DNA from: a virus
DNA: 30,517 bases
Strand: one strand, 5' to 3'
Virus record (IMG/VR): IMGVR_UViG_3300025705_000013
Coordinates: 1-30,517 of that record
Positions within the stretch are counted from its first letter, which is position 1; each line of letters begins with the position of its first letter. The position numbers and the translations under genes were made by a program. Below are positions 2,651-26,108 of this stretch, one piece after another. The notes beneath the pieces are model-generated. The model saw only the letters and a list, made by a program, of their open reading frames with translations. It was not told where the DNA came from and did not search any database.

Positions 2651-3046
2651 TTACCCTCCTGTGCTCAATTTGGAATGTACCTCTTTGAGATCAGCGGTTG
2701 ATAATGCTTTGAGATAGAGTTTAGCAATTGTTCTATTACATTGGTATACTTCTTGAATGGCATCAAGGTCTTTACTTTTATCAGCTTTTGGCCATTTGCT
2801 AAACCGTTTACGTTTACGCAATACACCTCGGTAATATTGAAATTGAGCATCTTTGAATAAGTGTGCTCTTTGATTCATTTCGTTTGCGTGAAGAATAGAA
2901 TCCTCAAAGTTAGTAAACCCACGGTTAACAATATATGGAACATATAGATTTTCTGCCATCTCAGGATTTTCATGGTTTGCAATCAAATCATCCTTTGAGA
3001 AGGATGCCGCGTTCATAAAATCAAAGGGTGTTATTTCTTTGACCAT
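2651..3046 (-). CDS. 62: Clamp loader small subunit (gp62-like)
   Basis: One gp62 subunit joins four gp44 subunits to load the gp45 clamp at primer-template junctions. The 131-residue protein has the family start (P-F-D-F-M-N), the central Y-Y-R-G-V-L-R-K-R-K-R-F and W-P-K-A segments and a helical C-terminus. It is shorter than T4 gp62 (187 residues), as I recall for marine relatives. GAGGAG lies before the ATG. The start overlaps the preceding zinc-ribbon gene by 26 bases, and it follows gp44 with only that gene between. Assignment rests on motif and gene order. Confidence 0.88.
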   Translation of the reverse strand: MVKEITPFDFMNAASFSKDDLIANHENPEMAENLYVPYIVNRGFTNFEDSILHANEMNQRAHLFKDAQFQYYRGVLRKRKRFSKWPKADKSKDLDAIQEVYQCNRTIAKLYLKALSTADLKEVHSKLSTGG

Positions 3047-3230
3047 TTAGTTTCTCCTCAAGATCTTTAAGCATATCATCAAAATCATCAGCGCAATTTT
3101 GACATAGCTTTAGGTGTAGCGGTCCATCCGCGGTATCAATGTCAACACTATAAATGTCTTTCTTATTAACAGTGTTTTCACAATTAAAACAAGTATGTAT
3201 GCCTATTAGTTTTTTGATCCATTCACTCAT
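3021..3230 (-). CDS. Small zinc-ribbon-like protein between clamp-loader genes
   Basis: A 69-residue acidic protein with two Cys pairs, C-F-N-C (14-17) and C-Q-N-C (43-46), spaced as in a treble-clef or zinc-ribbon fold, followed by a predicted helix rich in Asp, Glu and Leu. The ATG overlaps the gp44 stop (ATGA), so its translation is coupled to gp44, and it runs into gp62. T4 has no gene at this place. It may be a clamp-loader or replisome accessory factor, but that is inferred from position only. Confidence 0.7.
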   Translation of the reverse strand: MSEWIKKLIGIHTCFNCENTVNKKDIYSVDIDTADGPLHLKLCQNCADDFDDMLKDLEEKLNGQRNNTL

Positions 3231-4180
3231 CTGAAACTCGTTTCTATCATAATTTCAGTTAAGAATGCAACCATGTTAACTTCAAGGTCAGCTACAAAGT
3301 TGGCCTTATACATATAGTCAGCAAGTGTTACAACAAAACCTGGCATTGATCTCATTTCAATTTTATCGTTTGACATATCATAGATACGACGGAACATCTC
3401 ATTCATATCCTGGTCACTGTTTTTAGCAACCCATTTACGCATATTGGTAAAATCTTTTGCTTTGAGTAATTCAAACAGCGTATCCATTGATTCTTGTTTA
3501 AGATTAACAAAAATACCTTCATCAATTTTACCTGAAGCTGCATATGATTGCAGTTCAGTTAGAACACGACGGAAGTCAGGAAAATGTTTTTGGATTACTT
3601 TTGCAACTACCGCTTTATCGTGAGCGACGTTTTCCGTTTCAAGAATTGCCTCAACTCGTTTCATAAATTGCATCGCAAGTTTAGGACGGTCACTGGTTTC
3701 AATACTGAAATCAACTTCTGATAACCGAGAACGGAGTGGTGCAATAATACGGTTTTTGAAGTTACACGTAAAGATGAAACCGCAATTGGATGAGAATTCC
3801 TCAATAAAATTACGGAGTGCGGGTTGCACGTTAGCAGCATTTAGATAATCTGCTTCATCAAAGATAACGTATTTACGGCCACCTTGAAGTGATACCGCTG
3901 ACGCATATGTTGAGATATCATAGCGAAGAGTATCAATGTTTACGTTCAATGATCCGTTCTTAACAATATAGTCACAACCCATTTCTTCGAGCATTGCTTT
4001 TGCAATTGTTGTTTTACCAACACCTGGTCCACCACTCAATAACAGATTAGGAATACTATCATCGGATACGAATTTTTTAAACATATCTTTAGTTTTTTGC
4101 GGAAGAATTGTGTCTTCGATAACCTGAGGTCTATATCGTTCAACCCACAATACTTCATTTGCTTTTGCATCTACAGCCAT
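3227..4180 (-). CDS. 44: Clamp loader large subunit, AAA+ ATPase (gp44-like)
   Basis: ATP-driven motor of the T4-type clamp loader. The 317 residues match T4 gp44 in length (319). It starts with the W-V-E-R-Y-R-P box and carries Walker A GGPGVGKTT (50-58), Walker B VIFDEADYL (105-113), a sensor-1 segment near FIFTCN and the arginine-finger motif as S-R-L at 151-153 (often S-R-C). A C-terminal collar domain follows. It is separated from the upstream 86-residue gene by 56 bases that hold a GC-rich hairpin (4213-4229). Confidence 0.96.
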   Translation of the reverse strand: MAVDAKANEVLWVERYRPQVIEDTILPQKTKDMFKKFVSDDSIPNLLLSGGPGVGKTTIAKAMLEEMGCDYIVKNGSLNVNIDTLRYDISTYASAVSLQGGRKYVIFDEADYLNAANVQPALRNFIEEFSSNCGFIFTCNFKNRIIAPLRSRLSEVDFSIETSDRPKLAMQFMKRVEAILETENVAHDKAVVAKVIQKHFPDFRRVLTELQSYAASGKIDEGIFVNLKQESMDTLFELLKAKDFTNMRKWVAKNSDQDMNEMFRRIYDMSNDKIEMRSMPGFVVTLADYMYKANFVADLEVNMVAFLTEIMIETSFR

Positions 4181-4497: not shown

Positions 4498-5163
4498 TTA
4501 GGACCCTTTCTTATAAGTCGACTTTGTGTCAATTGCTACGTAATATGTAGCTTCGTTACCTTTGAACTCAGAGATACCTTTACTTGAAAGCGTAACTTTG
4601 TAATCCTGAGGTAGGAGTTTCAAATTATCAGTCTTGATGATAATTTTGAATGTATCAGATGTTTCACCGATTTCTACACCATAATCATCAGCCTTTTCGG
4701 TAGATGAGTCAAGCGCTTTAAGATAGCATTTGCCATCTTGTCCAACAAATGCAACTTCAGAGAATTGAAGCACACCTGCTGCTTTCACCACTGATTGGAT
4801 ATCTTCCCACGATACCGCCACTTCAACGTCAGCGTCCGTGATCTGAATGTCTTTCTCAGGTGGTGTATGAATCATAGAGATATCAGCAAACGCATAACGT
4901 GTGCGCTGTTTACCTTCTGTGATAATAAAGTATTTATCATGGAATTCTACATCCGGTTGCGAATGAAGTGACAAAATTGATAGAAATCTTGACAAATCAT
5001 AGATACAAGCTTGTGATGGAATTTGATCTGGGATTGTTGCTGTTGCGAGCAATGTTTTCTCAGGTGTAATTGTTTTCAATGTACTACCTGGTTGCATCAA
5101 GATTGATTTATTAATAGTAGAGAAACTCTTCAGAATAGTTAGAGTACGGTCAGAAAATTGCAT
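4498..5163 (-). CDS. 45: DNA polymerase sliding clamp (gp45-like)
   Basis: Trimeric ring that tethers the phage polymerase and, in T4, also activates late transcription. The 221 residues fit T4 gp45 (228). By-eye matches include the start (F-S-D-R-T-L-T-I-L-K-S-F), N-K-S-I-L near 18-22, the long central linker and the C-terminal Y-Y-V-A-I-D-T-K. AGGAG precedes the ATG. Gene order gp45, small gene, gp44, zinc ribbon, gp62, regA is the T4 core with two insertions. The clamp is the presumed docking partner for the tails of the genes at 6700-7923 and 7937-9187. Confidence 0.93.
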   Translation of the reverse strand: MQFSDRTLTILKSFSTINKSILMQPGSTLKTITPEKTLLATATIPDQIPSQACIYDLSRFLSILSLHSQPDVEFHDKYFIITEGKQRTRYAFADISMIHTPPEKDIQITDADVEVAVSWEDIQSVVKAAGVLQFSEVAFVGQDGKCYLKALDSSTEKADDYGVEIGETSDTFKIIIKTDNLKLLPQDYKVTLSSKGISEFKGNEATYYVAIDTKSTYKKGS

Positions 5164-5186: not shown

Positions 5187-6080
5187 TTATCTGTTTATTT
5201 TATTACGCTTTTGCTTTTTTGTCAATGGCTTTTTTGCCTTTTGAGATGTTTTATCAGCAGTTAGTGGTGCACCGAGTGAACCGATATGTGCCATTGAACC
5301 TTTGAATACATATGCTCCAATATGTTGCAACTGCATCCATGGGCAAGTCCAAATTCTTAATCCAATATCACGTGCTTTGCGGCAGAAGAAGTAATCTTCC
5401 GATAGATACCGTTTTGACACTGGGTCAATGATACAATCAAAGTATGCATGGATCATTGTTTTACCATCAAAGTTTTCAGTACGAACATGGTCAGGTTTGT
5501 ATTCCATCTCAGGATATGCTTCTTTCCATTTGGTAAATGTTTCACGTGGGATGAGCATAAATCCTGTACCTGCTTCTGCAACCTCCATTGGTTCACCGAC
5601 ATTAAATGTTGCCTGTCCTTGAACCGGGTTCATAACATAATCAGCAGTATAGTTTTCTAATTCAAACGGATCTTTATCAGCACGACCTTCTTTGGCAGCA
5701 CGTGCTACCTTTTCCCAAGCAATTGTTTTCTTTGGGTAAGGACCTGTTACGATATTATAATTCTCAGGATCTGAAATGTTAACCGCAAGCATTGCAAGAA
5801 TATCTTTTGCATTGAAACCAATATCAGAGTCAATAAAGACCATATGGGTACATTCTGACCTTAGGAATTCATCAACACAATAGTTACGTGCTCGCTGTAC
5901 AAGGCTTTCATTAAACAAATAATAAAACTTTACGGTGATACCATTTGCAGCGCACATCATAGCCAAATCTGTTGAGGCTTTTGTATATGAGCCAGCACAT
6001 TGGGCTCCATACATCGGTGTTGCTATGAAGAGGGAGTACTGCCGTAATTCCTCAACTGTTACTTCTATTTTATTACTCAT
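5187..6080 (-). CDS. GT-A-fold glycosyltransferase-like protein
   Basis: A 297-residue protein with a nucleotide-sugar-transferase look: an N-terminal strand S-L-F-I-A-T-P, the conserved S-L-V-Q-R-A-R-N segment and a metal-binding D-S-D at 84-86 (HMVFIDSDIGF). A second acidic cluster S-E-D-Y-F-F-C lies in the C-terminal half, typical of a catalytic-base region. The tail is very basic (K-K-Q-K-R-N-K). The ATG overlaps the dexA stop (ATGA). The acceptor is unknown; it could act on DNA, sugar or protein. The basic tail would suit nucleic-acid contact, which is inference. Confidence 0.72.
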   Translation of the reverse strand: MSNKIEVTVEELRQYSLFIATPMYGAQCAGSYTKASTDLAMMCAANGITVKFYYLFNESLVQRARNYCVDEFLRSECTHMVFIDSDIGFNAKDILAMLAVNISDPENYNIVTGPYPKKTIAWEKVARAAKEGRADKDPFELENYTADYVMNPVQGQATFNVGEPMEVAEAGTGFMLIPRETFTKWKEAYPEMEYKPDHVRTENFDGKTMIHAYFDCIIDPVSKRYLSEDYFFCRKARDIGLRIWTCPWMQLQHIGAYVFKGSMAHIGSLGAPLTADKTSQKAKKPLTKKQKRNKINR

Positions 6081-6703
6081 ATCATCTCCATATCATTTTC
6101 AGCTCGATGGATTGCCTGTAAACGCATAACGTCCGCAAGAATATCCCATGAGCTATCGTGTTCTTTAAAATTATTTTCCCACACTTCTGTATTATTGATT
6201 GGACAAAAACCATTGATCTTTGGGAAATCCAATTTTGCATCAATATAAGTACGTGTATCTCGTACTCTCCAAAACTTTAGGTATTCTTCCATATGTAGAA
6301 GTTTGTTTTGTGATTTAAACAAACGACCTAGAATAATAGGATCAAACGTATTTGATCTTGACCACCAATATGTAATGTTTGGTTGGCTAATCAAATAATC
6401 CATAAACTCTGAACAGAACATTTCAACAGTTAAGTCGTTGGGTGTTGGTTTGATATGCCTACGCACCTCAGGACCTAGTGACTCCCACCAACTAACTGTT
6501 GATGCATCGACTTCAAATCCATACTTTTTAACCTGATTAACAACATCAAGTTTAAATCGTTTTGCTTTTACAACATCGTTGAAGTTGTATGGATCATCAA
6601 GAAACTTATCCCAATTGAATACCATAACCGAGCAGTCGATTACAGCACATTTATTAGCATCCTTTCCGAATGTTTCAAAGTCGATTATAAGATCGTTTCT
6701 CAC
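6077..6703 (-). CDS. dexA: DexA-like 3'-5' exonuclease (DnaQ fold)
   Basis: The 208 residues align by eye with T4 DexA (227). Exo I is I-I-D-F-E-T-F-G (D8, E10), a TFDPII segment near 119 fits exo II, and the C-terminal HDSSWDILADVM matches T4's HDSIHDCAKDIL. TVSWWESLGPEVR parallels T4's TIEWWKNQSPEAR. T4 DexA degrades single-stranded DNA and oligonucleotides. The frame starts with GTG at 6703, with AGGAG 8 bases upstream; that GTG overlaps the methyltransferase stop (GTGA). No usable ATG precedes the first exo motif. Confidence 0.9.
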   Translation of the reverse strand: MRNDLIIDFETFGKDANKCAVIDCSVMVFNWDKFLDDPYNFNDVVKAKRFKLDVVNQVKKYGFEVDASTVSWWESLGPEVRRHIKPTPNDLTVEMFCSEFMDYLISQPNITYWWSRSNTFDPIILGRLFKSQNKLLHMEEYLKFWRVRDTRTYIDAKLDFPKINGFCPINNTEVWENNFKEHDSSWDILADVMRLQAIHRAENDMEMI

Positions 6704-7923
6704 GCAAAGAACTCCTCTAATGTAGGTTGATTACTTGTACCTCTAACATCAAATTCTGTCTTTTCAGTATGATTATTCTGACGCAGATAGTTTGTTTCAG
6801 ACATAGGTAGTTCACCGTTAAGGAATTTTGCAATCTGCAAGTGCATATCACGAGATGTTGGTACAGGAACATTTTGGGCAATGTGGTTCATAGAAGTCAT
6901 TCCATTAAGCAACTCAAAATCATCAGGGAAACCCATCAAATACAATGCTTCACGGATTGTTAGTGAACGGTCATAGTGCGGATGTACTGTGTCTGCAAGG
7001 TTACGTCCAATAACAGCATTCATACAATCATCAAACACATGGACTGATGCATCCCAAACACCCAAACCTTGAGCAAACTTTTTGATGGCATGGTCAGTTA
7101 CGTGTATACCACGTGTATGTCCTGTCTCGTGCATCCATTTATTTGCCTCTTGAATTTTACCTGATTTGTTTACATATCCAAATGCCGTTGCCGCAATCTC
7201 ACGGATAACTTGACGTGCTGTCATATTTGATCCTGGTGGTAGCATTGCTTCAACAAAATTATAATAAGGTTCATCCATTAGGTTTTTGTTTACAACCAAA
7301 TCTTGGTGTAGTGCATCATCTTTGACATCGTTTACATATTCATCAAATCTACGGCGTGGGCGTTTATGCCAATCCATAATAGGTGCAGTTTCTGATTTCC
7401 AACCAATAGCAAAGGTACGGTCACGTGCTTGTGGGATACCATGATATTTTGTTGATGTTTTATATAATGTCATACTATAACCTGCTTTGCTGCAAATGTC
7501 AAATAGTTTATCTGCTACAGGTCGACCTTTATTAGTAAATAGTGCAGGAGCGTTTTCAACAATAATAGCTTTGGCTTCAAACCTATTAATACCTTCTTTA
7601 AAAACTTCGTACATCCATTCGTTCTTTTCACAACCTGCACCTTTTGCGTCAGGCGCCTTTGCAGTATTCAATTGTGACAATGCAGCACAAGGTGGTGTAC
7701 CGCTGACAACATCAAGTGATCTTTTTGCGGCTTCAGGAATCATTGTATAGGCAATATCTCGACCTTTTGTTACAGTCTGATAGTTAACATAATGACTATC
7801 GTTTGCTCCAAAGTCAGGATAAGAATAGATTGTTTCAGGTGGCTTTCCGAATGCTTTTTCCGCTCCTAGCATTTGACCGCCGATTAGCGGAATGATTGGA
7901 GCCCAGGTAATTTCTTTGTTCAT
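6700..7923 (-). CDS. C5-cytosine DNA methyltransferase with C-terminal clamp-binding-like tail
   Basis: A 407-residue SAM-dependent DNA cytosine-C5 methyltransferase. Motif IV is TPPCAALS with the nucleophile Cys79, motif VI is E-N-A-P (123-126), motif VIII is QARDRTF (165-171), and a late R-E-A-L-Y-L-M-G-F-P-D-D-F fits the conserved C-terminal motif. Motif I is unusual: P-L-I-G-G-Q-M-L-G in place of F-x-G-x-G-G. The last nine residues, QPTLEEFFA, match the PIP box QxxLxxFF. AAGGA precedes the ATG. It lies between a glycosyltransferase with the same tail and dexA. It may protect phage DNA or act in hypermodification. Confidence 0.88.
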   Translation of the reverse strand: MNKEITWAPIIPLIGGQMLGAEKAFGKPPETIYSYPDFGANDSHYVNYQTVTKGRDIAYTMIPEAAKRSLDVVSGTPPCAALSQLNTAKAPDAKGAGCEKNEWMYEVFKEGINRFEAKAIIVENAPALFTNKGRPVADKLFDICSKAGYSMTLYKTSTKYHGIPQARDRTFAIGWKSETAPIMDWHKRPRRRFDEYVNDVKDDALHQDLVVNKNLMDEPYYNFVEAMLPPGSNMTARQVIREIAATAFGYVNKSGKIQEANKWMHETGHTRGIHVTDHAIKKFAQGLGVWDASVHVFDDCMNAVIGRNLADTVHPHYDRSLTIREALYLMGFPDDFELLNGMTSMNHIAQNVPVPTSRDMHLQIAKFLNGELPMSETNYLRQNNHTEKTEFDVRGTSNQPTLEEFFA

Positions 7924-7936
7924 AATATATCCTTAT

Positions 7937-9187
7937 TTAAAAAAATGCCTCGAGTGTTGCTGGTTTTTGAACTTCATATCCAGATAAATCGGGTCTCTTG
8001 TAGTTACTATCAAATGCGGTGAAGATTTTATCATTAATAAAACTGCCGTCATAATATTCAGGTTTAAGAACAGCTTTACGCAATTCTGTGATTGTTTGCT
8101 CATATGCCAATTTGTTATCAATGAGATATTGAAGATTTTTATGGAATTCTTCAGGTGTTTTTGGGCGCAAGATCTCAGGAATAGGAGTGTGACCTTGCAT
8201 ATCATATGACGGATGTAAGAATGGAATAACACCAGCATGGATCATTTCAATATACTTTGATGTTACCCAACCTTCTTTAATAGGAATGATAAACGTAAAC
8301 TTAACATCCTGTAGTTTGTTCTGCAACTGTTTCAGATGCATTGATCCTTTAAAGCGCTCATCTCCTTCTACATTGTTACCCCATTTGCCATAGATCTCAA
8401 CATCATCAAATTTGTCGAGTACCCATTCCTTTAAGAGTTTATAACGTGATGGTTTACCTTCATTAAGAACAACCATAAAGTCAGTGTTACGATTAGTATT
8501 TACTTCTTCTGTGTATTCGTAATCAACACAGAATGCCGTTTCCATTGCAGCATATTCACAGTCGACAGGAATGTCTTGCCGTGATTGATCTTCAATGCTT
8601 TTAATTGGATGAGCAGTATAGGTATAGTCATATTGGCTCAAACCTTTAAACGGTAGGTGCATAAAGTCACGTGCTTGCCGCATTGTGTATCGAGGATCAT
8701 TGATAACTTCAACATAATGTGGCTTACATTCATTTAGCCAAAAAGTCAATGGAGTAACATACCATTTTGTCATATCAAGAACAAATGCTGGTTTGCCATC
8801 ATCGTTTTCTTCACGAACCTTTTTCATCTTTTCAGGAATACTTACGTTACCGATTTGACCTACCATCATTACCGTGGCATCAAGCGTGATATTATTTTCT
8901 TCAAAATATGTTTTAATCCACCAAAAATACCGATCAGTTGGTACTCTTTCAATTTTCATTTCTGCCCAAATATCAATAACATTATTATAAGGAAACAGAT
9001 CTGCTTTATCCGTTTCAGTTAATGAAGCGAAGTCAGATCTTCCTACAATATAAAATATTTTATCGGGGTTGTTGTTTGCAATAGCACGAAGAACACAAGA
9101 TGCCTCATTGTCACCACCGACAGGAGAATATTTGTTTGTCCTTAGCTTTACTGATTTACCAATTTTGGCAAAGGCAATATGTTTCAT
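7937..9187 (-). CDS. GT-B-like glycosyltransferase with clamp-binding-like tail
   Basis: About 416 residues. The start K-H-I-A-F-A-K-I-G, then Y-S-P-V-G-G-D-N-E-A, fits the sugar-nucleotide fold entry. The C-terminal half has T-S-K-Y-I-E-M-I-H-A-G-V-I-P-F, like the donor-binding segment of retaining GT-B enzymes and comparable with LELGACGTIPVF of T4 alpha-glucosyltransferase. The last residues are PATLEAFF, a PIP-like peptide. I prefer the ATG at 9187, just after the HAD stop, over 9199. T4 alpha-glucosyltransferase has been reported to bind gp45, so a DNA acceptor is plausible. A polysaccharide acceptor remains possible. Confidence 0.75.
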   Translation of the reverse strand: MKHIAFAKIGKSVKLRTNKYSPVGGDNEASCVLRAIANNNPDKIFYIVGRSDFASLTETDKADLFPYNNVIDIWAEMKIERVPTDRYFWWIKTYFEENNITLDATVMMVGQIGNVSIPEKMKKVREENDDGKPAFVLDMTKWYVTPLTFWLNECKPHYVEVINDPRYTMRQARDFMHLPFKGLSQYDYTYTAHPIKSIEDQSRQDIPVDCEYAAMETAFCVDYEYTEEVNTNRNTDFMVVLNEGKPSRYKLLKEWVLDKFDDVEIYGKWGNNVEGDERFKGSMHLKQLQNKLQDVKFTFIIPIKEGWVTSKYIEMIHAGVIPFLHPSYDMQGHTPIPEILRPKTPEEFHKNLQYLIDNKLAYEQTITELRKAVLKPEYYDGSFINDKIFTAFDSNYKRPDLSGYEVQKPATLEAFF

Positions 9188-9189
9188 AA

Positions 9190-9552
9190 TTAAATCCATT
9201 CCATAGTTTTAACGAATTGCTCAGGAGTCATTGCTTTATCGTCAATATAGTAAACGCCGTATGGTTTACCCCAAACAATTTCATCATAAGGAACGTCGTA
9301 CTTTTTTAGCCAATCGACTGTAATCTGTCCGACGTCTTCAATAATTTTATTTATGTCACCGCCATGAGTCAACATTCTGCGTGCTGTATGTAGCACAATC
9401 CGAAAACCTTTTGACTTTGCCTTTTGTAGACTTGCAATCATAGGTTCATTGGGTAGAGCCATAGCATACTTCTGTTCTGATTCTTTTTGGTTATGTCTAG
9501 GGTAACATATAGTATCGTCAATGTCAACCACAATTGTTTCTTGCGTACTCAT
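9190..9552 (-). CDS. HAD-superfamily phosphatase, capsule-phosphatase type
   Basis: A 120-residue HAD hydrolase without a large cap. Motif I is VVDIDDT with nucleophile D10 and acid D12; motif II Thr lies in LHTARR; motif IV is the late Y-Y-I-D-D-K. Its closest look is the small sugar- or polyol-phosphate phosphatases of bacterial capsule loci. It overlaps the nucleotidyltransferase-kinase gene upstream by 29 bases and abuts the glycosyltransferase downstream. Removing a phosphate during activated-sugar synthesis is the likely role; the substrate is not deducible. Confidence 0.82.
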   Translation of the reverse strand: MSTQETIVVDIDDTICYPRHNQKESEQKYAMALPNEPMIASLQKAKSKGFRIVLHTARRMLTHGGDINKIIEDVGQITVDWLKKYDVPYDEIVWGKPYGVYYIDDKAMTPEQFVKTMEWI

Positions 9553-10999
9553 TAATATAATCTCTCATTCTTTGTTGTCTGTCTTCGCAATCATAGTGAA
9601 GTTTAATGCAAGTTGCGATTAACAGTGCACCGCCATCAATGATTTCGTTATAATCATCAGGAAAGTACTCTTTAATTAATTCAGAAAAACATTCCCGAAC
9701 CGCTGTGGGGTATTTATGCCCCGTAACTAGTTCGCTATATCCATGATATAGGTCGTGTGACAATTTGCACATATCGTAAAGATAATCACCACCGATACCT
9801 ATATAATCACCGTAAGATCCTCGTGGATCCAATAATGTAAAAGCATCATTATATGGGTTATACAGAATGTTGCCAAAGTGCAAGTCACCATGCATAGCAT
9901 CAACAGGTTTTGCCTTTTTCAAACAGCGTTCCGCAACACTTCGGTAATACGGACTATCAGTTTCTAATCGTTCTTCTGTTTTATCAATCCACATCTTTTT
10001 TGCATTGTCAGGAAAATTAGCAGTAAACTCAAGAGTTGGTTTACGGTGAAAATGGTTCCACATTGTAAGTATAACTCTTTCAATCAAATACCGTATAGTA
10101 CTTTTTGATATGTCCTCATGAGCAAATAGATCAGATAGCAGAATGCCTGACTCATAGGACATGGTCAGGGAATAATCATCTTTTAATACTTTAGGAATGA
10201 GCATGCTTTGAATAGGTGACAGTGATGTATACCAATTCTTTTCATTCATAATAGTTCTTGTGGCAAAACTGTTATTTGCAGTCGGAACCTTTGTAATCAT
10301 ATTGAGATCGGCATGATATTCAAACGAATTAAACTCACGTGCCTTTAGTGTCAACAATGTAGCACAAGTTTTATGGTATGAGGCAATATCACCAATATCA
10401 TACCACAATTCTGTACTTACGTTATTAAAGTTACCATAATCTTCAAGTGCATCGGAAATATCATATCCTTTACTCTCACAAAAAGCAACGGATGCAGTTT
10501 GCCCACACGCAAAACTATATAGACCTACAAGTGCGGTTGCGTTATCAATGTTTTCTTTTGGTTTATTGTAATATTTTTGACCATCCCACATACACCAAGC
10601 AAAGTGATCTTCAACTTGTTTTGTTAAAAGGAAGTCTGTACCCAATGGCATATTTTCTTCAAGGATAATTGCATCACCCAACCAAACAACAAGAGGACAT
10701 TCCCAATTACCCAAATTTTCAATACCAACAGCAATAGCGTCACGGGGTCCATTTAACGATCCTTGTTTTACACATTTAATATTTTTATATTTTGATTTTT
10801 CAACCCAGTCACGAATATCATTATGCTTACCATCAACAATAACGATCTGTCCAACTTGATCAGCATTCTTATAAATTGATTCAATAATATATTCAATAGT
10901 AGGTTTACCGTGGACACGGATCATAGCCTTGCTACAATTTGACGTTAGCGGTTTAAGGCGTGTTGCTTCTCCTGCCGCTGGTATCACTACATTTATCAT
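9524..10999 (-). CDS. Bifunctional sugar nucleotidyltransferase - APH-like kinase fusion
   Basis: 491 residues with two domains. Residues 1 to about 230 are a nucleotidyltransferase: I-P-A-A-G-E-A-T-R-L-K-P-L-T (6-19) with Lys24, and the metal region W-L-G-D-A near 106-110. Residues from about 240 are an aminoglycoside/choline-kinase-like fold with catalytic loop HGDLHFGN (370-377) and metal motif DPRG (391-394). Together they could phosphorylate and then nucleotidylate a sugar or alcohol. GGAG precedes the ATG. With the HAD phosphatase and glycosyltransferase downstream it forms a compact donor-making and transfer set. Substrate unknown. Confidence 0.85.
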   Translation of the reverse strand: MINVVIPAAGEATRLKPLTSNCSKAMIRVHGKPTIEYIIESIYKNADQVGQIVIVDGKHNDIRDWVEKSKYKNIKCVKQGSLNGPRDAIAVGIENLGNWECPLVVWLGDAIILEENMPLGTDFLLTKQVEDHFAWCMWDGQKYYNKPKENIDNATALVGLYSFACGQTASVAFCESKGYDISDALEDYGNFNNVSTELWYDIGDIASYHKTCATLLTLKAREFNSFEYHADLNMITKVPTANNSFATRTIMNEKNWYTSLSPIQSMLIPKVLKDDYSLTMSYESGILLSDLFAHEDISKSTIRYLIERVILTMWNHFHRKPTLEFTANFPDNAKKMWIDKTEERLETDSPYYRSVAERCLKKAKPVDAMHGDLHFGNILYNPYNDAFTLLDPRGSYGDYIGIGGDYLYDMCKLSHDLYHGYSELVTGHKYPTAVRECFSELIKEYFPDDYNEIIDGGALLIATCIKLHYDCEDRQQRMRDYINEYARNNCG

Positions 11000-14054: not shown

Positions 14055-14062
14055 TATTTATA
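14055..14062 (-). promoter_or_regulatory. Candidate T4-type late promoter box
   Basis: TATAAATA on the minus strand, overlapping the last codons of the dCMP hydroxymethylase gene. A start at the usual distance would fall at or next to the ATG at 14049, giving an mRNA with little or no leader. The match is exact but the region is AT-rich, so chance is possible. Confidence 0.35.
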
Positions 14063-14756
14063 CAACAAGATCAAAATGACGTTCGTATACGTGCAGGTTC
14101 ATCACTTGCCATGTCAGCATGCCTTTTTCAATAGTAAAGTGTTTATTACCAGGAAGCTCACAACGGTTATTCCATCGAGTAACAAGTTGATCCATTAGGT
14201 ATTGAGCCCATGCGTAATCATTCTTGTAACCAAATACAACATCATTAGAACGCATTTGCGATACCATATGTAGAATACCTTCACGGATATAGAATGTTTG
14301 AGCATTGGTACAAATGAAATCAGACTTACCGTTTTCATCAAACTCAACCCAGATAGATGGACGGTTGTAAACCATTTGAGCACGACGGCTGTCAGGATTA
14401 CGCCATAGTTCATCAAAGGCATTTTCAAATTGATTAAAATACTTTGGTGAGTTTACAAGGTGACCATAGTTTGAATTAATTTCACCGTTTGGATCAGAAG
14501 CATATTGCCATGCCGCAGGTGGTTCTTTAGATGGTCCGTAAATATCATTAATATTTGTTGAACCTGATTTGTACCAATCCAATTCTGATTGAATATAACT
14601 TTGACTTGGGTTACCAAAGATTGCTGGTTCAGTTGCAAGAAAGTTTGCACCGATTAATTCAATAGTACGTTGGCCTGTTTTATCAATAGTGAATGCTTCA
14701 TCTTTAAGTTCACCTTTGAAAAACTCACGGATATCATATACGCTATCAATTCTCAT
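14058..14756 (-). CDS. 42: dCMP hydroxymethylase (T4 gp42-like)
   Basis: Makes 5-hydroxymethyl-dCMP from dCMP and methylene-tetrahydrofolate. It aligns by eye along nearly its whole length with T4 gp42: DKTGQRTIELIGANF, GEINSNYG (91-98), NPDSRRAQMVY, the nucleophile Cys149 in F-I-C-T-N, and MRSNDVVFGYKNDYAW. Thymidylate synthase has Asn where T4 gp42 has Asp179; here it is Asp180, which argues for dCMP over dUMP. At 232 residues it ends soon after HVYERHF and lacks about 20 C-terminal residues of T4 gp42. ATGA overlap with the nuclease gene upstream. Confidence 0.92.
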   Translation of the reverse strand: MRIDSVYDIREFFKGELKDEAFTIDKTGQRTIELIGANFLATEPAIFGNPSQSYIQSELDWYKSGSTNINDIYGPSKEPPAAWQYASDPNGEINSNYGHLVNSPKYFNQFENAFDELWRNPDSRRAQMVYNRPSIWVEFDENGKSDFICTNAQTFYIREGILHMVSQMRSNDVVFGYKNDYAWAQYLMDQLVTRWNNRCELPGNKHFTIEKGMLTWQVMNLHVYERHFDLVV

Positions 14757-18654: not shown

Positions 18655-19343
18655 GGTTCAATCACAAGAAAAGGATATTCTAATTCGTGTACGATTTGGA
18701 TAGTGCCACCAAGATGGCCTAATACGAATGGTGGTCTATACATTGTCAAAAATGTTTGGCATGGAGTATTGTTTGCTTGTATCTGATCTCGTATCAATAC
18801 ATTGTTATCGGTAAGATAAGCTATGTTTGTATCGGTCTCATTCTCTAAGTTACGTATATCAATACTTGATCCATCTCTTTCAACACGTGCCTTATAAAAC
18901 CTATCAAGTAATTTTGTACTATTCGTTCCTATAAGACTAATAATGATTTTCTTATAAGTAAATGTTTCTTTCATCCACCGAACGGTTTGTTTGAACTCAT
19001 TAAAATCTGTATGGGTAAATACACTAAACGCAAAAATAATATCTTGCTTTGTATTGATATTAGGAAACGGTTCGTCAAGATTGCCAGTCTGATTATAAAC
19101 TTTATTGTATTTGTTATAATGAAAAAAGTTAGCATCAGGATAATTTTTTGCACCAACATCCAATGCACCTTTATCAACATCAACACAAGTATAGTTACTT
19201 TGTTTGATTGGAAAATTATCAAACGATAATAGGTTGCCTTGATTGCCACCCCAATCTAAAAATGTTGTTGTGCTTGATAAATCATCAACCTCTAAAAGGC
19301 TGTTAAGACTGATTACCGATTTTTCTACTGGGTATAAATCCAT
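18651..19343 (-). CDS. Class I SAM-dependent methyltransferase
   Basis: A 230-residue protein. The SAM-binding start is T-F-L-D-W-G-G-N-Q-G-N (about 28-38), with acidic V-D-V-D after the second strand and D-I-I-F-A-F-S-V-F-T-H as motif IV/V of small-molecule methyltransferases. Its start overlaps the PP-loop gene by 41 bases. Methylation of a sugar or surface metabolite is likely from context; a DNA target is less likely because no N-P-P-Y or P-C motif is present. Confidence 0.75.
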   Translation of the reverse strand: MDLYPVEKSVISLNSLLEVDDLSSTTTFLDWGGNQGNLLSFDNFPIKQSNYTCVDVDKGALDVGAKNYPDANFFHYNKYNKVYNQTGNLDEPFPNINTKQDIIFAFSVFTHTDFNEFKQTVRWMKETFTYKKIIISLIGTNSTKLLDRFYKARVERDGSSIDIRNLENETDTNIAYLTDNNVLIRDQIQANNTPCQTFLTMYRPPFVLGHLGGTIQIVHELEYPFLVIEP

Positions 19344-20034
19344 AATCCCAATCTCCCCATATTAATTTACGTTCACCGCAGGACCAACATACACCACACG
19401 GTTTTTCTGTATCAGGTATGTTAGAACAGCACGACCTTGTTTCCTGTAACAAATCAAACAAATCAAATCTCTTGTAGATTGACGCAACAAATCTTTTATC
19501 AACATTTGCAAATGGAGAATAATACGGATATCCAAATCTATCAATTGTAATAGGAATATCGTTTTCATTCCGTATACCAATCATTGGATCACATTCTTTC
19601 CAAAGATTAATATGTGTACCATCTTTTAATTCAATGTCAACATCAAATCGAGGGTTAGCTGTATTACCGCCAATAAGCATATCATACTCACCGCGGCCAA
19701 ACACTTCTTTTTGATATTTATGTAGGTGAGAGTCGTTATAATCATCACCGTAGACTGTATGGTGAGACAAGATGTTGTGGTAATCAAACTTGCTAATCAT
19801 ATATTCAATGATGTTGGCAGACCTTCGTGCCTGCCATCTATACCGCTTGTCAAAGGCTAGAGTAAGGCATCCAATCGTTGTATCGTGTCGGTTATTTTCC
19901 GTTAAGTATTTGATTAGCAAATAAAAAACCAATGCCGAATCAGCACCACCGCTCAAATTAAAAAGTATTCTTTTACATTCTAACGGTATTTCAAAGCTTA
20001 TAGATTGACCAAACTCATCCTCAAGATACATCAT
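19303..20034 (-). CDS. PP-loop ATPase, QueC-like (7-cyano-7-deazaguanine synthase-like)
   Basis: A 243-residue protein with a PP-loop SGGADS (28-33) that adenylates an acid group, and a C-terminal zinc site S-C-C-S...C-G-V-C-W-S-C-G-E-R (about 202-222). The spacing resembles QueC (S-C-x-G...C-G-x-C-x-x-C-x-x-R). QueC converts carboxy-deazaguanine to preQ0. No FolE, QueD or QueE partner is visible here, so a related nitrile- or amide-forming step on another acid is equally possible. The track start at 20037 is TTG; ATG follows at 20034. Confidence 0.75.
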   Translation of the reverse strand: MMYLEDEFGQSISFEIPLECKRILFNLSGGADSALVFYLLIKYLTENNRHDTTIGCLTLAFDKRYRWQARRSANIIEYMISKFDYHNILSHHTVYGDDYNDSHLHKYQKEVFGRGEYDMLIGGNTANPRFDVDIELKDGTHINLWKECDPMIGIRNENDIPITIDRFGYPYYSPFANVDKRFVASIYKRFDLFDLLQETRSCCSNIPDTEKPCGVCWSCGERKLIWGDWDYGFIPSRKIGNQS

Positions 20035-20854
20035 CAATCCACTTGTTTATCGCTGCACCGAGGTTTATTTGTCCTTTTGCATCAGGATGAGAGTCAAGTT
20101 CTGAAATTTTACTTTCTGCTGATAGCCATTTACCGCCAATCTCTTTCCATACAGGCCAACCGTATACTTCAACAGGATTAATCTTTTCAACTTTTGCAAA
20201 TTTCTCACCTGAGATTAATTCATCGAGAACTGCATTAGTTAAAAAGCAATTTTCAATTCTTTCATCAATCATTAAGTTAAAAACTTTCCATTCCTTAGGA
20301 TGCTTTTGTCTAAAGTCATCGAGGTACCACCACCAGTAATCAGATGTAAATGGCCACATAGGAACATCTGATTGAAATATATTTAATTTAATATCAAGTT
20401 TACGGCATAACATAATTACCTTCTCAATATAAAACAGTGTGTTTTCTAATATAGGTATAGGTCCGTCGAGTGCTAATGGCAATGTATGTAAACCCATTAA
20501 GTATTCACCACTTGCATTATCTTTTCTGAATTTCTTTTCAGAATTAGATTCCATTGCAAATGTATCCCACCTTTTGCAAGGCATTATTCTGCGCCTACCT
20601 AATTGTAATCTTGACCAATCGGTAAGTTGCCAACAAATGTGTGATGGAGGATCATCTGATAATACCGCGTCCATTATTTCAATATAAGCATACTCATTTG
20701 AACTACCGGATCTACCTTTATTAACTGCAGGCAACCCCAAATGCTTTCCAACATATTCTGGCCATTTCGGCCATGAGCAATCAAGTTCTTCATGCTGAAA
20801 AGAAAAGTAATTATGGTCAGTCCAACTACATCCTACCGCAAGCAAATAACTCAT
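20021..20854 (-). CDS. SGNH/GDSL-like hydrolase
   Basis: A 277-residue protein. The N-terminal A-V-G-C-S-W-T-D holds the block I serine (Ser10), N-K-G-R-S-G-S-S-N-E-Y fits block II, and the C-terminal D-S-H-P-D-A-K-G-Q supplies the Asp-His pair of block V. These enzymes remove acyl or acetyl groups from sugars and lipids, and some act in reverse as acyltransferases. The start overlaps the double glycosyltransferase stop by one base (TAATG). Next to a GNAT and glycosyltransferases, editing of sugar acylation is a fair guess. Confidence 0.75.
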   Translation of the reverse strand: MSYLLAVGCSWTDHNYFSFQHEELDCSWPKWPEYVGKHLGLPAVNKGRSGSSNEYAYIEIMDAVLSDDPPSHICWQLTDWSRLQLGRRRIMPCKRWDTFAMESNSEKKFRKDNASGEYLMGLHTLPLALDGPIPILENTLFYIEKVIMLCRKLDIKLNIFQSDVPMWPFTSDYWWWYLDDFRQKHPKEWKVFNLMIDERIENCFLTNAVLDELISGEKFAKVEKINPVEVYGWPVWKEIGGKWLSAESKISELDSHPDAKGQINLGAAINKWIDDVS

Positions 20855-23231: not shown

Positions 23232-23814
23232 ATTTCATTCCATTATACATATCAATTGGTGCAGTGCCATTATAAGGATTGGCAATTGAGTTTACTAATC
23301 CGTGTTCAAATGTATTAAATTTAATACCTTCATGGACAAGAAACCGATCTATACCTGCGTACTTTCTCATAAAGTAATCTTTATTTGACATAAAGTGATC
23401 CCAGATATGATTCTGTTCACCAGCAGTCCATGTGATTACTGAACTATTTATGTGAACATCATAAGCATGGGGCGCCATGTATAAATCGTCTTTCCAATAA
23501 TCTTTAATGATTGTTAACCCATCCCAATTCAACCATGGCCGCGGATCAGCTTTAATATCCATGTCTAAATCAAAGAATAAACATTTGCCTTTGACTGGAA
23601 AATCTTTACTAAACATTGCAAGTTTATTCCACCAAAATCTAAGTGATGGTTTTTTGAAACATGGAATACACTCAATCTCAACATTTAATGGATTATCAGT
23701 ATAGCACAAGTATTGAGAATTAGGATAGTATTCCCGTAGCTGATCTCTCAATCTGTTAACGTGTTCGGGGTCGTACTTATCACCATGTTTCACAAATATA
23801 ATATTATCGGTCAT
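23206..23814 (-). CDS. GT-A-fold glycosyltransferase-like protein
   Basis: A 202-residue protein. It starts with a strand I-I-F-V-K-H-G-D and Y-D-P-E-H-V-N-R-L, has a small Y-L-C-Y-T-D-N strand and the metal motif F-F-D-L-D-M-D (D-L-D). That order is typical of compact GT-A enzymes. ATG 23814 is preferred over 23823 because GAGGA lies 9 bases upstream. It follows a radical-SAM gene with an overlap. Donor and acceptor unknown. Confidence 0.72.
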   Translation of the reverse strand: MTDNIIFVKHGDKYDPEHVNRLRDQLREYYPNSQYLCYTDNPLNVEIECIPCFKKPSLRFWWNKLAMFSKDFPVKGKCLFFDLDMDIKADPRPWLNWDGLTIIKDYWKDDLYMAPHAYDVHINSSVITWTAGEQNHIWDHFMSNKDYFMRKYAGIDRFLVHEGIKFNTFEHGLVNSIANPYNGTAPIDMYNGMKYELPRNTL

Positions 23815-24904
23815 TGATTGCATTCCTCAATAAGTTCATAATTTTTGTAACTGCCATCTTACTGTTGCGGTTTGAAATGTTTAGTGCTTGCACTCTATTC
23901 ATTGTATCTTCTAATACATCTTTTGATAACAAGTTAATATTCCAATCTTCAGTATGTGTTCGTCCTGCTCTATCATATGCATTTATAAACGCACCGAAAT
24001 GATTATCCTCAGCATACTTTAGAAACAAATCAATATTTTTGGCATTGACTTTCATAAGAGTTGAATTAACTTTAATCCTATTAGGACCTAACACATCTTT
24101 AAACTTTTGAATGTTGTCCATTGTTTCACTATACTTGCCACCAATTCTAATCATATCATATTCTGATTCAACAACAGTATCTAATGAAATTGAAAGATTT
24201 AAATTGTTTTCTTGGCATATCCTTACAACTTTTTTATTAAACACACTACCGTTAGTGCAAACCTGTATTTTTAAACTAGGATTAATTTCGGCAATCAATG
24301 CGCAAAGTTTATATGATGCTTTATGAGAAAATGGTTCACCGCCAACAAATCTTATCTCTTTTAGGTGTGGAATAAACTCAACAAACTGTTCAAGTAATTG
24401 TTCCAAGTTCTCATCATTATCAAATACGTTTGGATCATATTGTCTAATATCTTTGTCACGCCCTAGCATATGTTTTGATGATAATTCACCAAAGCACATT
24501 GGACATGCCATATTACATAGATTACTAATTTCAAATTCAAAAACGCGTGGCCAGGAGTCACCATCAAGGGCATGCTCTAATCTATCTTCGCCAACATTGT
24601 AATCGTATTCAATAATAGGTGGCGTTTCACCTTTATCAATTCTTTTTTGGCAAGCAGCCTGACAACCTGCACTTAATTTGTTTTTAAGAAAGTCATCTTT
24701 ATAAGTGTTGTTTAATTCGCCAAACCAATAATCTTTTAAACCAAACCGATCCTTTTTCCATATTTTCATTTTACGACTAAAGCAGCAAGGATGCATCCCG
24801 CCATTTCTTCTTATTCGCATATGATTAAATGCGGCATAGCAAGATATTATTTTATGATGCTCTGGTATAGTTCGTTTGCTTTGAAACAAATCCCATTCAT
24901 TCAT
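23804..24904 (-). CDS. Radical SAM protein with N-terminal Cys cluster (twitch type)
   Basis: A 366-residue radical-SAM enzyme. The [4Fe-4S] motif C130-x3-C134-x2-C137 (LCNMACPMC) follows E-F-E-I-S-N, and R-F-V-G-G-E-P-F gives the SAM-contact motif. An additional set of cysteines lies before the core (C22, C40, C41, C81, C85), as in proteins with a twitch or SPASM-like auxiliary cluster placed at the N-terminus. It overlaps the next radical-SAM gene by eight bases. It may form C-C, C-S or dehydrogenated groups on a peptide or sugar. Confidence 0.87.
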   Translation of the reverse strand: MNEWDLFQSKRTIPEHHKIISCYAAFNHMRIRRNGGMHPCCFSRKMKIWKKDRFGLKDYWFGELNNTYKDDFLKNKLSAGCQAACQKRIDKGETPPIIEYDYNVGEDRLEHALDGDSWPRVFEFEISNLCNMACPMCFGELSSKHMLGRDKDIRQYDPNVFDNDENLEQLLEQFVEFIPHLKEIRFVGGEPFSHKASYKLCALIAEINPSLKIQVCTNGSVFNKKVVRICQENNLNLSISLDTVVESEYDMIRIGGKYSETMDNIQKFKDVLGPNRIKVNSTLMKVNAKNIDLFLKYAEDNHFGAFINAYDRAGRTHTEDWNINLLSKDVLEDTMNRVQALNISNRNSKMAVTKIMNLLRNAINDR

Positions 24905-26108
24905 TGTTTTTGTATTCCTTCAAATATGGAGCCAAATCCCATATGTCTTCATTATTTTCACGTGCCACTAAACAAAAGTCAATCCATTCAACCATTCTTT
25001 CTTGTATTTGTAACTTTTCACCCCAGAAACCTTCTTCTTGTGGTACAACACTTAATACGTTATTAGTATTACTCAAATCAAGTTTTGGGTTTCGCCAATA
25101 AAATTTATCGACTTGTTCAAATTTAGAATTAAGATATTCAAATAGTTTATCAATACCTTCTTTTTGATGATGGTCATCTAACCAAACAGGTGAACAATAT
25201 TTTGGAAATGTAACAAGGTTTGCCATACTTACACGAGGTACACCTGGTACATCAATAAAGTAATCAATCAATTCTGGCAAGTGCATCCAATTATAAATTG
25301 AGACCGTTGCAACAACTATTACGTTACGTCCTTCGACGGCATGGTACCGATTGATATTATTTATTGTGCGCTCAAAGTTACCGCCACGGATCCAATCATA
25401 TGTTTCGTGTACTCCGTCAATACTTGCTTGAATATGTACTTCTTCAATTTGATGTAAAATATCAATAACAGTATTAGTAACCAATTGAAAGTTGGTGCAA
25501 ATCTCAACACGGCATTTAGGATTTGTTTCTGCAACCTTTTTCAATATTTTTATATTGTTTGGATCGGCAAATGGTTCACCGCCTTTAATAGTCAGGTGTT
25601 GTAAATGTGGAACAAGATCAAGTACTTTATCAACATCGGCGTCAGTCATCTTATACATATCAGTATGGAATTTATGATTTTGGTTTCGCCAATCTAAACC
25701 AGACTCAACCGCCACTTTTTCATATGGAGCCCACTTTGATGAGTATTTACCTGAACAAGTTACACACATTTGGTTACAGATATTACTTGTTGTAAGCTCA
25801 AGAAACCTTATCGGTGTTACTTCCGCGGCAGCGTCTTCTTCATATGTTGGAAATTTAAAACGGTTGTAAGTATCAAACCGTGCAAGGCGCCCGGCATCCC
25901 AATGTCTCCAACAAACATCACATTGAGGTGGGAATTTCTTTTCTTTAAAATCTGCTCGGATTTGATTGTATATATCACCGTTAAAGAATTCGGTTAAATC
26001 AGGAACATCTTTAATATGTGATACCGCGGTGTTATCACCGGCACAACATAAGACAATTTCTCCAATAGGATTGATTGTCAATCCAGTTTCAGGTACCATA
26101 CATTTCAT
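24897..26108 (-). CDS. Radical SAM protein with N-terminal SPASM/twitch-like cluster
   Basis: A 403-residue enzyme. N-terminal auxiliary-cluster cysteines are at 21, 22, 63 and 66 (I-V-L-C-C-A-G-D and P-P-Q-C-D-V-C-W). The radical-SAM motif is C111-x3-C115-x2-C118 (ICNQMCVTC), followed by T-I-K-G-G-E-P-F (163-170). The start M-K-C-M-V-P-E-T-G-L-T-I-N-P-I-G-E is one I recall from twitch-domain phage proteins. It is first in the cassette after the tail genes. Two such enzymes side by side suggest successive or paired radical steps. Confidence 0.88.
   Translation of the reverse strand: MKCMVPETGLTINPIGEIVLCCAGDNTAVSHIKDVPDLTEFFNGDIYNQIRADFKEKKFPPQCDVCWRHWDAGRLARFDTYNRFKFPTYEEDAAAEVTPIRFLELTTSNICNQMCVTCSGKYSSKWAPYEKVAVESGLDWRNQNHKFHTDMYKMTDADVDKVLDLVPHLQHLTIKGGEPFADPNNIKILKKVAETNPKCRVEICTNFQLVTNTVIDILHQIEEVHIQASIDGVHETYDWIRGGNFERTINNINRYHAVEGRNVIVVATVSIYNWMHLPELIDYFIDVPGVPRVSMANLVTFPKYCSPVWLDDHHQKEGIDKLFEYLNSKFEQVDKFYWRNPKLDLSNTNNVLSVVPQEEGFWGEKLQIQERMVEWIDFCLVARENNEDIWDLAPYLKEYKNNE

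Follow-up and report, generated by a model that had tools for sequence, protein, structure and literature searches.

The 30.5-kb virus record IMGVR_UViG_3300025705_000013, analyzed here over its whole length and referred to as the window, carries on its minus strand a T4-type replication block in which a C5-cytosine DNA methyltransferase (DCM) and an adjacent probable DNA glycosyltransferase (GT) end in similar short peptides. As transcribed, the block encodes a nucleotidyltransferase, a HAD protein, GT, DCM, an exonuclease, a conserved protein of unknown function, gp45, gp44, gp62 and RegA, with small open reading frames (ORFs) interspersed among them. The first-pass annotation had placed the sliding clamp gene downstream in the same gene run as the two enzymes, and it does lie there, on the same strand: the gp45-type clamp, the presumed partner of the two tails, is encoded at 4498..5163 (PF09116, 62.5 bits; phrog_223, E 3.7e-69; relatives 1b77/1b8h, 1czd and 6drt in the Protein Data Bank (PDB)).

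DCM (407 residues; 6700..7923, minus strand) is a C5-cytosine DNA methyltransferase by its match to PF00145, at 79.1 bits against a cut-off of 22; it also matches phrog_116, and its AF2 model has a pLDDT of 88.5. PPC, ENAP and QARDR were read by eye in its sequence, and we take these to be the motifs named PPC, ENAP and QxRxR. An activity of the CmoX type was considered and rejected, as DCM has TPPC and not the SPPC described for the CmoX carboxymethyltransferase (PMC12783734; here and below, the papers cited by PMC number are drawn on through parts of their text). Its C-terminus reads SNQPTLEEFFA, as had been annotated, with the tail TLEEFFA at 6703..6723 (minus strand) modeled as a short helix (residues 402-406).

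GT (420 residues; 7937..9199, minus strand) matched no Pfam or PHROG family at E 0.001 and could not be assigned by sequence to the T4 beta-glucosyltransferase family. Its AF2 model (pLDDT 82.7, pTM 0.85) has a GT-B fold, the best PDB match of which is T4 beta-glucosyltransferase (Foldseek E 4e-7 and TM 0.54/0.64 with 1j39; Z 20.0 over 310 residues, rmsd 4.2 and 12% identity with 1nzd). Bacterial GT-B enzymes come next, with Z of 17-18, and match nearly as well, so that the acceptor cannot be read from the fold alone. Fold and gene neighborhood together suggest that GT is probably a DNA glycosyltransferase. Its C-terminus, VQKPATLEAFF, is also as annotated, and the tail TLEAFF (7940..7957, minus strand) forms a short helix in the model (residues 416-419).

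Homologues from phages that have the same clamp proved to keep both tails, the point on which the earlier interpretation had been staked in advance. Under a relaxed pattern the tail is kept in 48/49 GT and 53/54 DCM non-redundant members (44 and 39, respectively, under the strict one), and wherever these loci also hold a clamp, it is 56-98% identical to that of the window. Relatives at 50-71% identity mostly retain the L, E, F and F residues behind a linker that varies in sequence and length, with divergent codons. The comparison of motif columns covered 25 of 27 aligned GTs and 21 of 24 aligned DCMs, the excluded sequences being near-duplicates, L102 and the DCM of L063, and none was lost to the pattern. 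Among the 25 GTs, pairwise identity was 1.00 for L, 0.92 for E, 0.44 for the variable position and 0.92 for each F, compared with 0.12-0.64 in the preceding 18 columns, and the codons of the motif leucine differed in 73% of pairs. For the 21 DCMs the corresponding values were 0.90 (L), 0.73 (E), 0.73 (variable position), 1.00 (F) and 0.59 (last position; F, M or L), with 0.08-0.65 before the motif. Such a pattern, in which L and F are fixed and E and the last F mostly so, while the linker varies and codons change synonymously, is typical of short linear motifs. The codons of the two window tails also differ from each other, as the first-pass annotation had pointed out, and the retention of residues while codons diverged indicates that the tail is under selection.

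The terminal position of these peptides exceeds what chance would give. G001, a 221-kb contig from a close relative that was read in pieces (279 predicted ORFs, 71,264 residues) and whose GT and DCM are 99% identical to those of the window, contains LxxFF 16 times, and the three occurrences within two residues of a C-terminus are those of the polymerase gp43, DCM and GT only. In a first set of 1101 non-redundant predicted proteins, taken from the first 102 related loci, the window and G001, the tail pattern fitted 85: 38/39 GTs, 33/35 DCMs, 8/9 gp43 polymerases, 2/9 members of a family of about 233-235 residues, and 4 singletons. Adding diverse clamp loci (37-78% clamp identity) enlarged the set to 2388 non-redundant proteins, drawn from the window, G001 and 224 loci. 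There the core motif L[DE]x[FLM][FLYM], scored within three residues of the C-terminus, was observed 114 times compared with 2.5 expected from its internal rate, although homologues are numerous among these proteins, the patterns had been adjusted once the first tails were known, and ORF calling was mechanical. The 114 tails comprise 44 GTs, 39 DCMs, 15 gp43, 4 TET, 2 TAGT, 2 AGT, 1 HMUDK and 1 ADDT (108 in all), plus 2 from a family of unknown function, 1 fragment and 3 that look like chance matches; families were named by Pfam for the members tested and by clustering for the others. A strict tail occurred in at least half of the members in 7 of the 194 families having two or more members. 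Chance similarity was rejected on the basis of the LxxFF count in G001 and of this excess.

The first-pass annotation had likened both peptides to the PIP box QxxLxxFF. The L, F and F of that pattern stand, but the glutamine is conserved in neither family (the column three before the leucine is Q in 4/21 DCMs, and V or A in 16/25 GTs), and a eukaryotic PIP box with its glutamine was rejected for this reason. By sequence, the motif is instead that of the T4 type, [ST]L[DE]x[FL]F, which the tails of both DCM and GT fit, so that the proline found in place of glutamine in GT is immaterial. The T4 polymerase peptide is SLDFLF; deletion of these last six residues stops clamp association, and the peptide has been solved in the gp45 pocket, where its bound form is a single-turn helix (PMC12746103). 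T4 gp43, gp55 and gp33 do carry such peptides at their C-termini, as the annotation had stated (SLDFLFG, SLDFLYEAND and TNTLDFLL), and these tails are freely interchangeable, that of gp55 being preceded by a divergent linker (PMC2988020). As a control, the core motif was scored in T4, where 4 of 268 ORFs carried it: the three known clamp binders gp43, gp55 and gp33, and also gp32. The gp43 gene lies outside the window, and the polymerase tail was read from relatives: G001 gp43 ends in INTLEDFFG and the polymerases of other relatives in TLESFFV, TLESFFM or SLESFFM. When TLEDFFG is aligned with SLDFLFG, the two are the same peptide. In the 13 loci (about seven of them distinct) that hold the polymerase together with GT, DCM or both, every listed tail fits.

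A scan blind to function revealed further tails near gp45 on Tet_JBP, TAGT, AGT (the T4 alpha-glucosyltransferase family), HMUDK (5hmU-DNA kinase) and ADDT (amino-acid:DNA transferase) proteins and on other C5-cytosine methyltransferases. Ten proteins from tail-bearing families were tested against Pfam and eight matched, to Tet_JBP, TAGT, AGT, HMUDK_hel, ADDT or C5-methyltransferase. Among alpha-glucosyltransferase relatives in other contigs the tail was present in 2 of 4 (L219, and L217 as assigned by clustering). The family of unknown function corresponds to phrog_13881 and also to one end of phrog_17781, the other part of which is matched by the HMUDK protein encoded next to one of the family's members; because both match parts of the same PHROG, they are probably fused in other phages. 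Separately, the three members of an amino acid:DNA transferase-type family (one at 6339-7331 of L241) end in GLEEFM, GIERFT and GVELFAG, possibly degenerate tails.

Isolate genomes gave additional cases: a D12 Dam (STLDAFFG) and a TET (SLEEFFV) in C48C1, a Mom (TATLEGFF) and a TET (NLNDFLGE) in Melnitz, and a TET (TLGDFFV) in DLP6, the last two TETs fitting only the relaxed pattern in the core-pattern genome scan. Dam and Mom were assigned by Pfam; they and a TAGT-like protein of Cr30 were found through their tails. This Cr30 protein, the TAGT assignment of which falls below the Pfam cut-off (19.7 against 27.5 bits), ends in DLSKLF and the Cr30 polymerase in DLSSLFD, so they have a private variant, DLSxLF, in common. 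When isolate TETs were instead found by homology (7 of 13 records, one per phage), the relaxed tail was present in 3/4 from phages with a gp45 match and in 0/3 from phages without a phrog_223 match, here called gp45-negative, numbers too small for statistics. Of 78 TETs, 71 fitted the tail, but the query that retrieved them itself bears a tail, so that they do not count as independent. A Tet_JBP search matched in none of seven window relatives, an outcome that does not imply absence, since its control search also matched nowhere. Finally, a tighter pattern, defined post hoc, gave 15 matches in eight gp45 genomes (1976 ORFs) and none in two gp45-negative genomes (400 ORFs). The 15 are six polymerases, seven DNA modifiers (a DCM and a GT of the window type, two TETs, Dam, Mom and the TAGT-like protein) and two members of a presumed baseplate family.

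The TLExFF peptides ending DCM and GT are thus very probably T4-type clamp-interacting peptides that would tether the two enzymes to gp45. They are nearly identical to the polymerase tail, and such tails occur on several unrelated modifier families in gp45 phages and are absent from others; the best reading is that DNA-modifying enzymes have gained the docking peptide repeatedly. From these sequences we infer binding to gp45 and, with it, a replication-coupled action of both enzymes. In such a mechanism, each tail, carried on a variable and probably flexible linker, would occupy, as a helix of one turn, the hydrophobic pocket that lies where the two domains of a gp45 subunit meet. Since each of the three clamp subunits has a pocket, one ring could accommodate polymerase, methyltransferase and glycosyltransferase together or in turn. 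The tether would concentrate DCM and GT on newly made DNA, and bases could be modified before host nucleases reach them. It would be compatible with action at the replication fork or on clamps left behind on fresh DNA.

A broader proposal, which we hold tentatively and consider somewhat less than an even bet, is that of a clamp-mounted assembly line. Unrelated modifiers (C5-methyltransferase, TET, several glycosyltransferases, 5hmU kinase, amino-acid:DNA transferase, Dam and Mom) would repeatedly have gained the polymerase docking peptide, the spelling of which can follow the resident polymerase, as in Cr30; successive enzymes of a pathway would act on nascent DNA from the three pockets of one ring; and phages lacking a clamp of their own may use peptides for the host beta clamp, such as the QLEIF and QQTLF of phage P12024L. 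In this Nonlabens phage (L348), which has no gp45 match, a TAGT (5595-6353) ends in NQLEIF and an N6/N4 methyltransferase (6355-6990) in QQTLF, ends that, we presume, resemble the bacterial clamp motif. The TAGT of a relative (L426) ends in NQTQLF, the only other TAGT end seen among three related loci, L425 being a copy of P12024L. With so few sequences, host beta-clamp tails in P12024L constitute a lead.

Several observations weigh against a clamp tether. The scan of tails against gp45 proposed in the first-pass annotation came out in its favor among relatives of the window, which keep the tails, but not in Pseudoalteromonas phage XG4, whose more distant GT and DCM homologues lack the tail although it is a gp45 phage (with a divergent gp45 and a polymerase ending in ASLDDLFM); hence the tail is not universal. 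It is also missing in other gp45 phages from the T4 alpha- and beta-glucosyltransferases, the Cronus alpha-glucosyltransferase, the Melnitz C5-methyltransferase, the Cr30 TET and the only PF00145 protein of S-B43, taken as CmoX. The C5-methyltransferase of Klebsiella phage Matisse, counted apart from these gp45 phages, likewise lacks it. The annotated polymerase ORF of S-B43 ends in MIEI, without a tail, and a T4 query found no polymerase in DLP6. The core pattern occurred in 12/1426 ORFs of six gp45 phages and in 3/400 of two gp45-negative ones (one being the S-CBWM1 TAGT, ending in HELEDLLP), and thus fails to tell whole genomes of the two kinds apart, which only the tighter post hoc pattern does. 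The family of about 233-235 residues, which we take to be a baseplate protein, also ends in FF and, besides its 2/9 members fitting the tail, supplies 2/15 of the tight matches; its G001 member (67384-68085, plus strand) and ends such as IEGMRSFFT probably represent an unrelated C-terminus. In T4 the contact between alpha-glucosyltransferase and gp45 was judged not to be the main cause of alpha predominance, which was attributed mostly to expression strength (PMC13216743). Finally, a C5-methyltransferase together with a dCMP-hydroxymethylase-like protein (14058..14756, minus strand; thymidylate synthase family, PF00303; closely similar to T4 gp42 around MRSNDVVFGYKNDYAW) in one genome is biochemically puzzling: if 5-hydroxymethylcytosine (hmC) replaces cytosine, DCM would have little substrate. 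On the sequences compared, the tail is optional and dispensable in evolution.

Binding to gp45 could also serve mainly other ends, such as modification from left-behind clamps, coupling to late transcription or packaging, or simple retention on phage and not host DNA, which we regard as less likely but of appreciable probability. The clamp also tracks DNA away from forks, and late genes are activated in this way by means of gp55 and gp33, whose tails are interchangeable (PMC2988020, PMC7892883), and the T4 alpha-glucosyltransferase binds gp45 by a contact that does not mainly set the alpha/beta ratio (PMC13216743). However, the gp55 and gp33 homologues of G001 (130547-131119 and 146687-146872, both plus strand) end in KDKAKKK and DITELCK, so that in this genome the tail is common to the polymerase and the modifiers and not to the transcription factors. 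Elsewhere, gp55 lacks the tail in DLP6, Cr30 and Melnitz, and ends in possible variants in XG4 (GLDLLIEEE) and C48C1 (DLSEWMED), so this argument does not apply everywhere; given this variation, these phages may not all couple late transcription to the clamp in the same way.

It is much less probable that the tails bind another partner, namely the host beta clamp, the clamp loader or the single-strand-binding protein. Short hydrophobic-acidic tails do serve many partners, gp32 scored in the T4 control, and P12024L shows what modifiers may carry in a phage without a gp45 match. Against this, the polymerase of the lineage has the same tail, the T4 equivalent of which sits in the gp45 pocket, and the tight motif was absent from the 400 ORFs of the two gp45-negative genomes scanned. 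Tails of the host beta-clamp type were searched for and rejected among the 2388 proteins, none of which has a C-terminus with the QLxLF-type pattern. Just as improbable, or slightly more so, is that the tail belongs to the enzyme fold or to a dimer contact, or was copied between neighboring genes. The adjacency of the GT and DCM genes and the short helix on the motif in both AF2 models would agree with this, but model confidence falls at the tail (66 in the last block compared with 92 before it in GT; 75 compared with 85 in DCM), the linker varies, and similar tails recur in unrelated families and at the end of the polymerase, whose gene lies far away. Copying between the GT and DCM genes in particular was rejected, on account of the codons that diverged while the tail residues stayed and of the polymerase tail. 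Tethering to gp45 remains our preferred explanation for the tails of DCM and GT.

The remainder of the replication block agrees with a T4-type machinery and offers possible substrates for GT. The large and small clamp loader subunits, gp44 and gp62, are encoded at 3227..4180 (phrog_168, E 5.5e-106) and 2651..3046 (phrog_225, E 1.7e-30), both on the minus strand. The nearby gp42-like hydroxymethylase is a possible source of hmC and makes this base plausible as the acceptor of GT, which, to judge from fold and neighbor, it perhaps is. On the same strand, a HAD-type phosphatase-like protein (9190..9552; phrog_1238, with PF25109 below cut-off) adjoins GT, followed by a nucleotidyltransferase and kinase-like protein (9524..10999; PF00483, 45.4 bits). 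Genes of both kinds also adjoin the GT homologues of Enterococcus phage 9183 and of XG4 (recognized by eye in the latter), in the order HAD, nucleotidyltransferase, GT, compared with nucleotidyltransferase, HAD, GT in the window. This arrangement suggests that they supply the sugar or sugar nucleotide. The replication and nucleotide block also includes a beta-ketoacyl synthase (PF00109/PF02801; 12144-13382). Farther along, two adjacent ORFs (23804-24904 and 24897-26108) contain CxxxCxxC-like motifs that, by eye, recall radical SAM enzymes, and a QueC-like ORF (19303-20037, below cut-off) lies not far from them.

Base modification in phages must outrun host restriction, and a shared docking peptide, if confirmed, would account for unrelated enzymes getting to newly made phage DNA ahead of it. 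The question of replication coupling, raised for the T4 alpha-glucosyltransferase in 2004, would become testable by point mutations in the tails. The tail may moreover serve as a classifier: since 8 of the 10 tested proteins from tail-bearing families are DNA-modifying, it hints that unannotated carriers such as GT act on DNA.

Among the closest known systems is that of T4 gp43, gp55 and gp33 on gp45, which is alike in the C-terminal position of the peptide, the [ST]L[DE]x[FL]F pattern, the variable linker and the presence of an own gp45-type clamp; here, in contrast, the peptide stands on DNA-modifying enzymes, and the gp55 and gp33 homologues of G001 lack it. The first-pass annotation had invoked the binding of T4 alpha-glucosyltransferase to gp45 as a precedent, and this is real: the interaction (Sommer 2004, known here through citing papers; the contact also appears in PMC6024577) was found again by pull-down in a 2026 paper (PMC13216743). 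That enzyme is, like the window GT as proposed here, a DNA glycosyltransferase contacting gp45, but it ends in KEQFDIITK, without the motif, and the window GT is nearer in fold to T4 beta-glucosyltransferase, which did not bind gp45 (PMC13216743). Phage hypermodification systems with TET, C5-methyltransferase and TAGT enzymes, and those with CmoX and CmoY, are likewise post-replicative systems acting on cytosine, and several of their enzyme families bear tails here; by comparison, the S-B43 C5-methyltransferase has none, and the main text of the CmoX paper contains no word beginning with "clamp". In the open PMC literature, outside of which most subscription papers lie, we found no report of clamp tails on phage C5-methyltransferases, TET, TAGT, Dam or Mom. 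In eukaryotes, DNMT1 is a C5-cytosine methyltransferase that docks on the replication clamp PCNA (PMC9690074), a clamp of another lineage, whereas the present enzyme is from a phage, uses a C-terminal peptide and is paired with a glycosyltransferase. Docking of a C5-methyltransferase on a clamp and contact of a DNA glycosyltransferase with gp45 are already known from DNMT1-PCNA and T4 alpha-glucosyltransferase, respectively.

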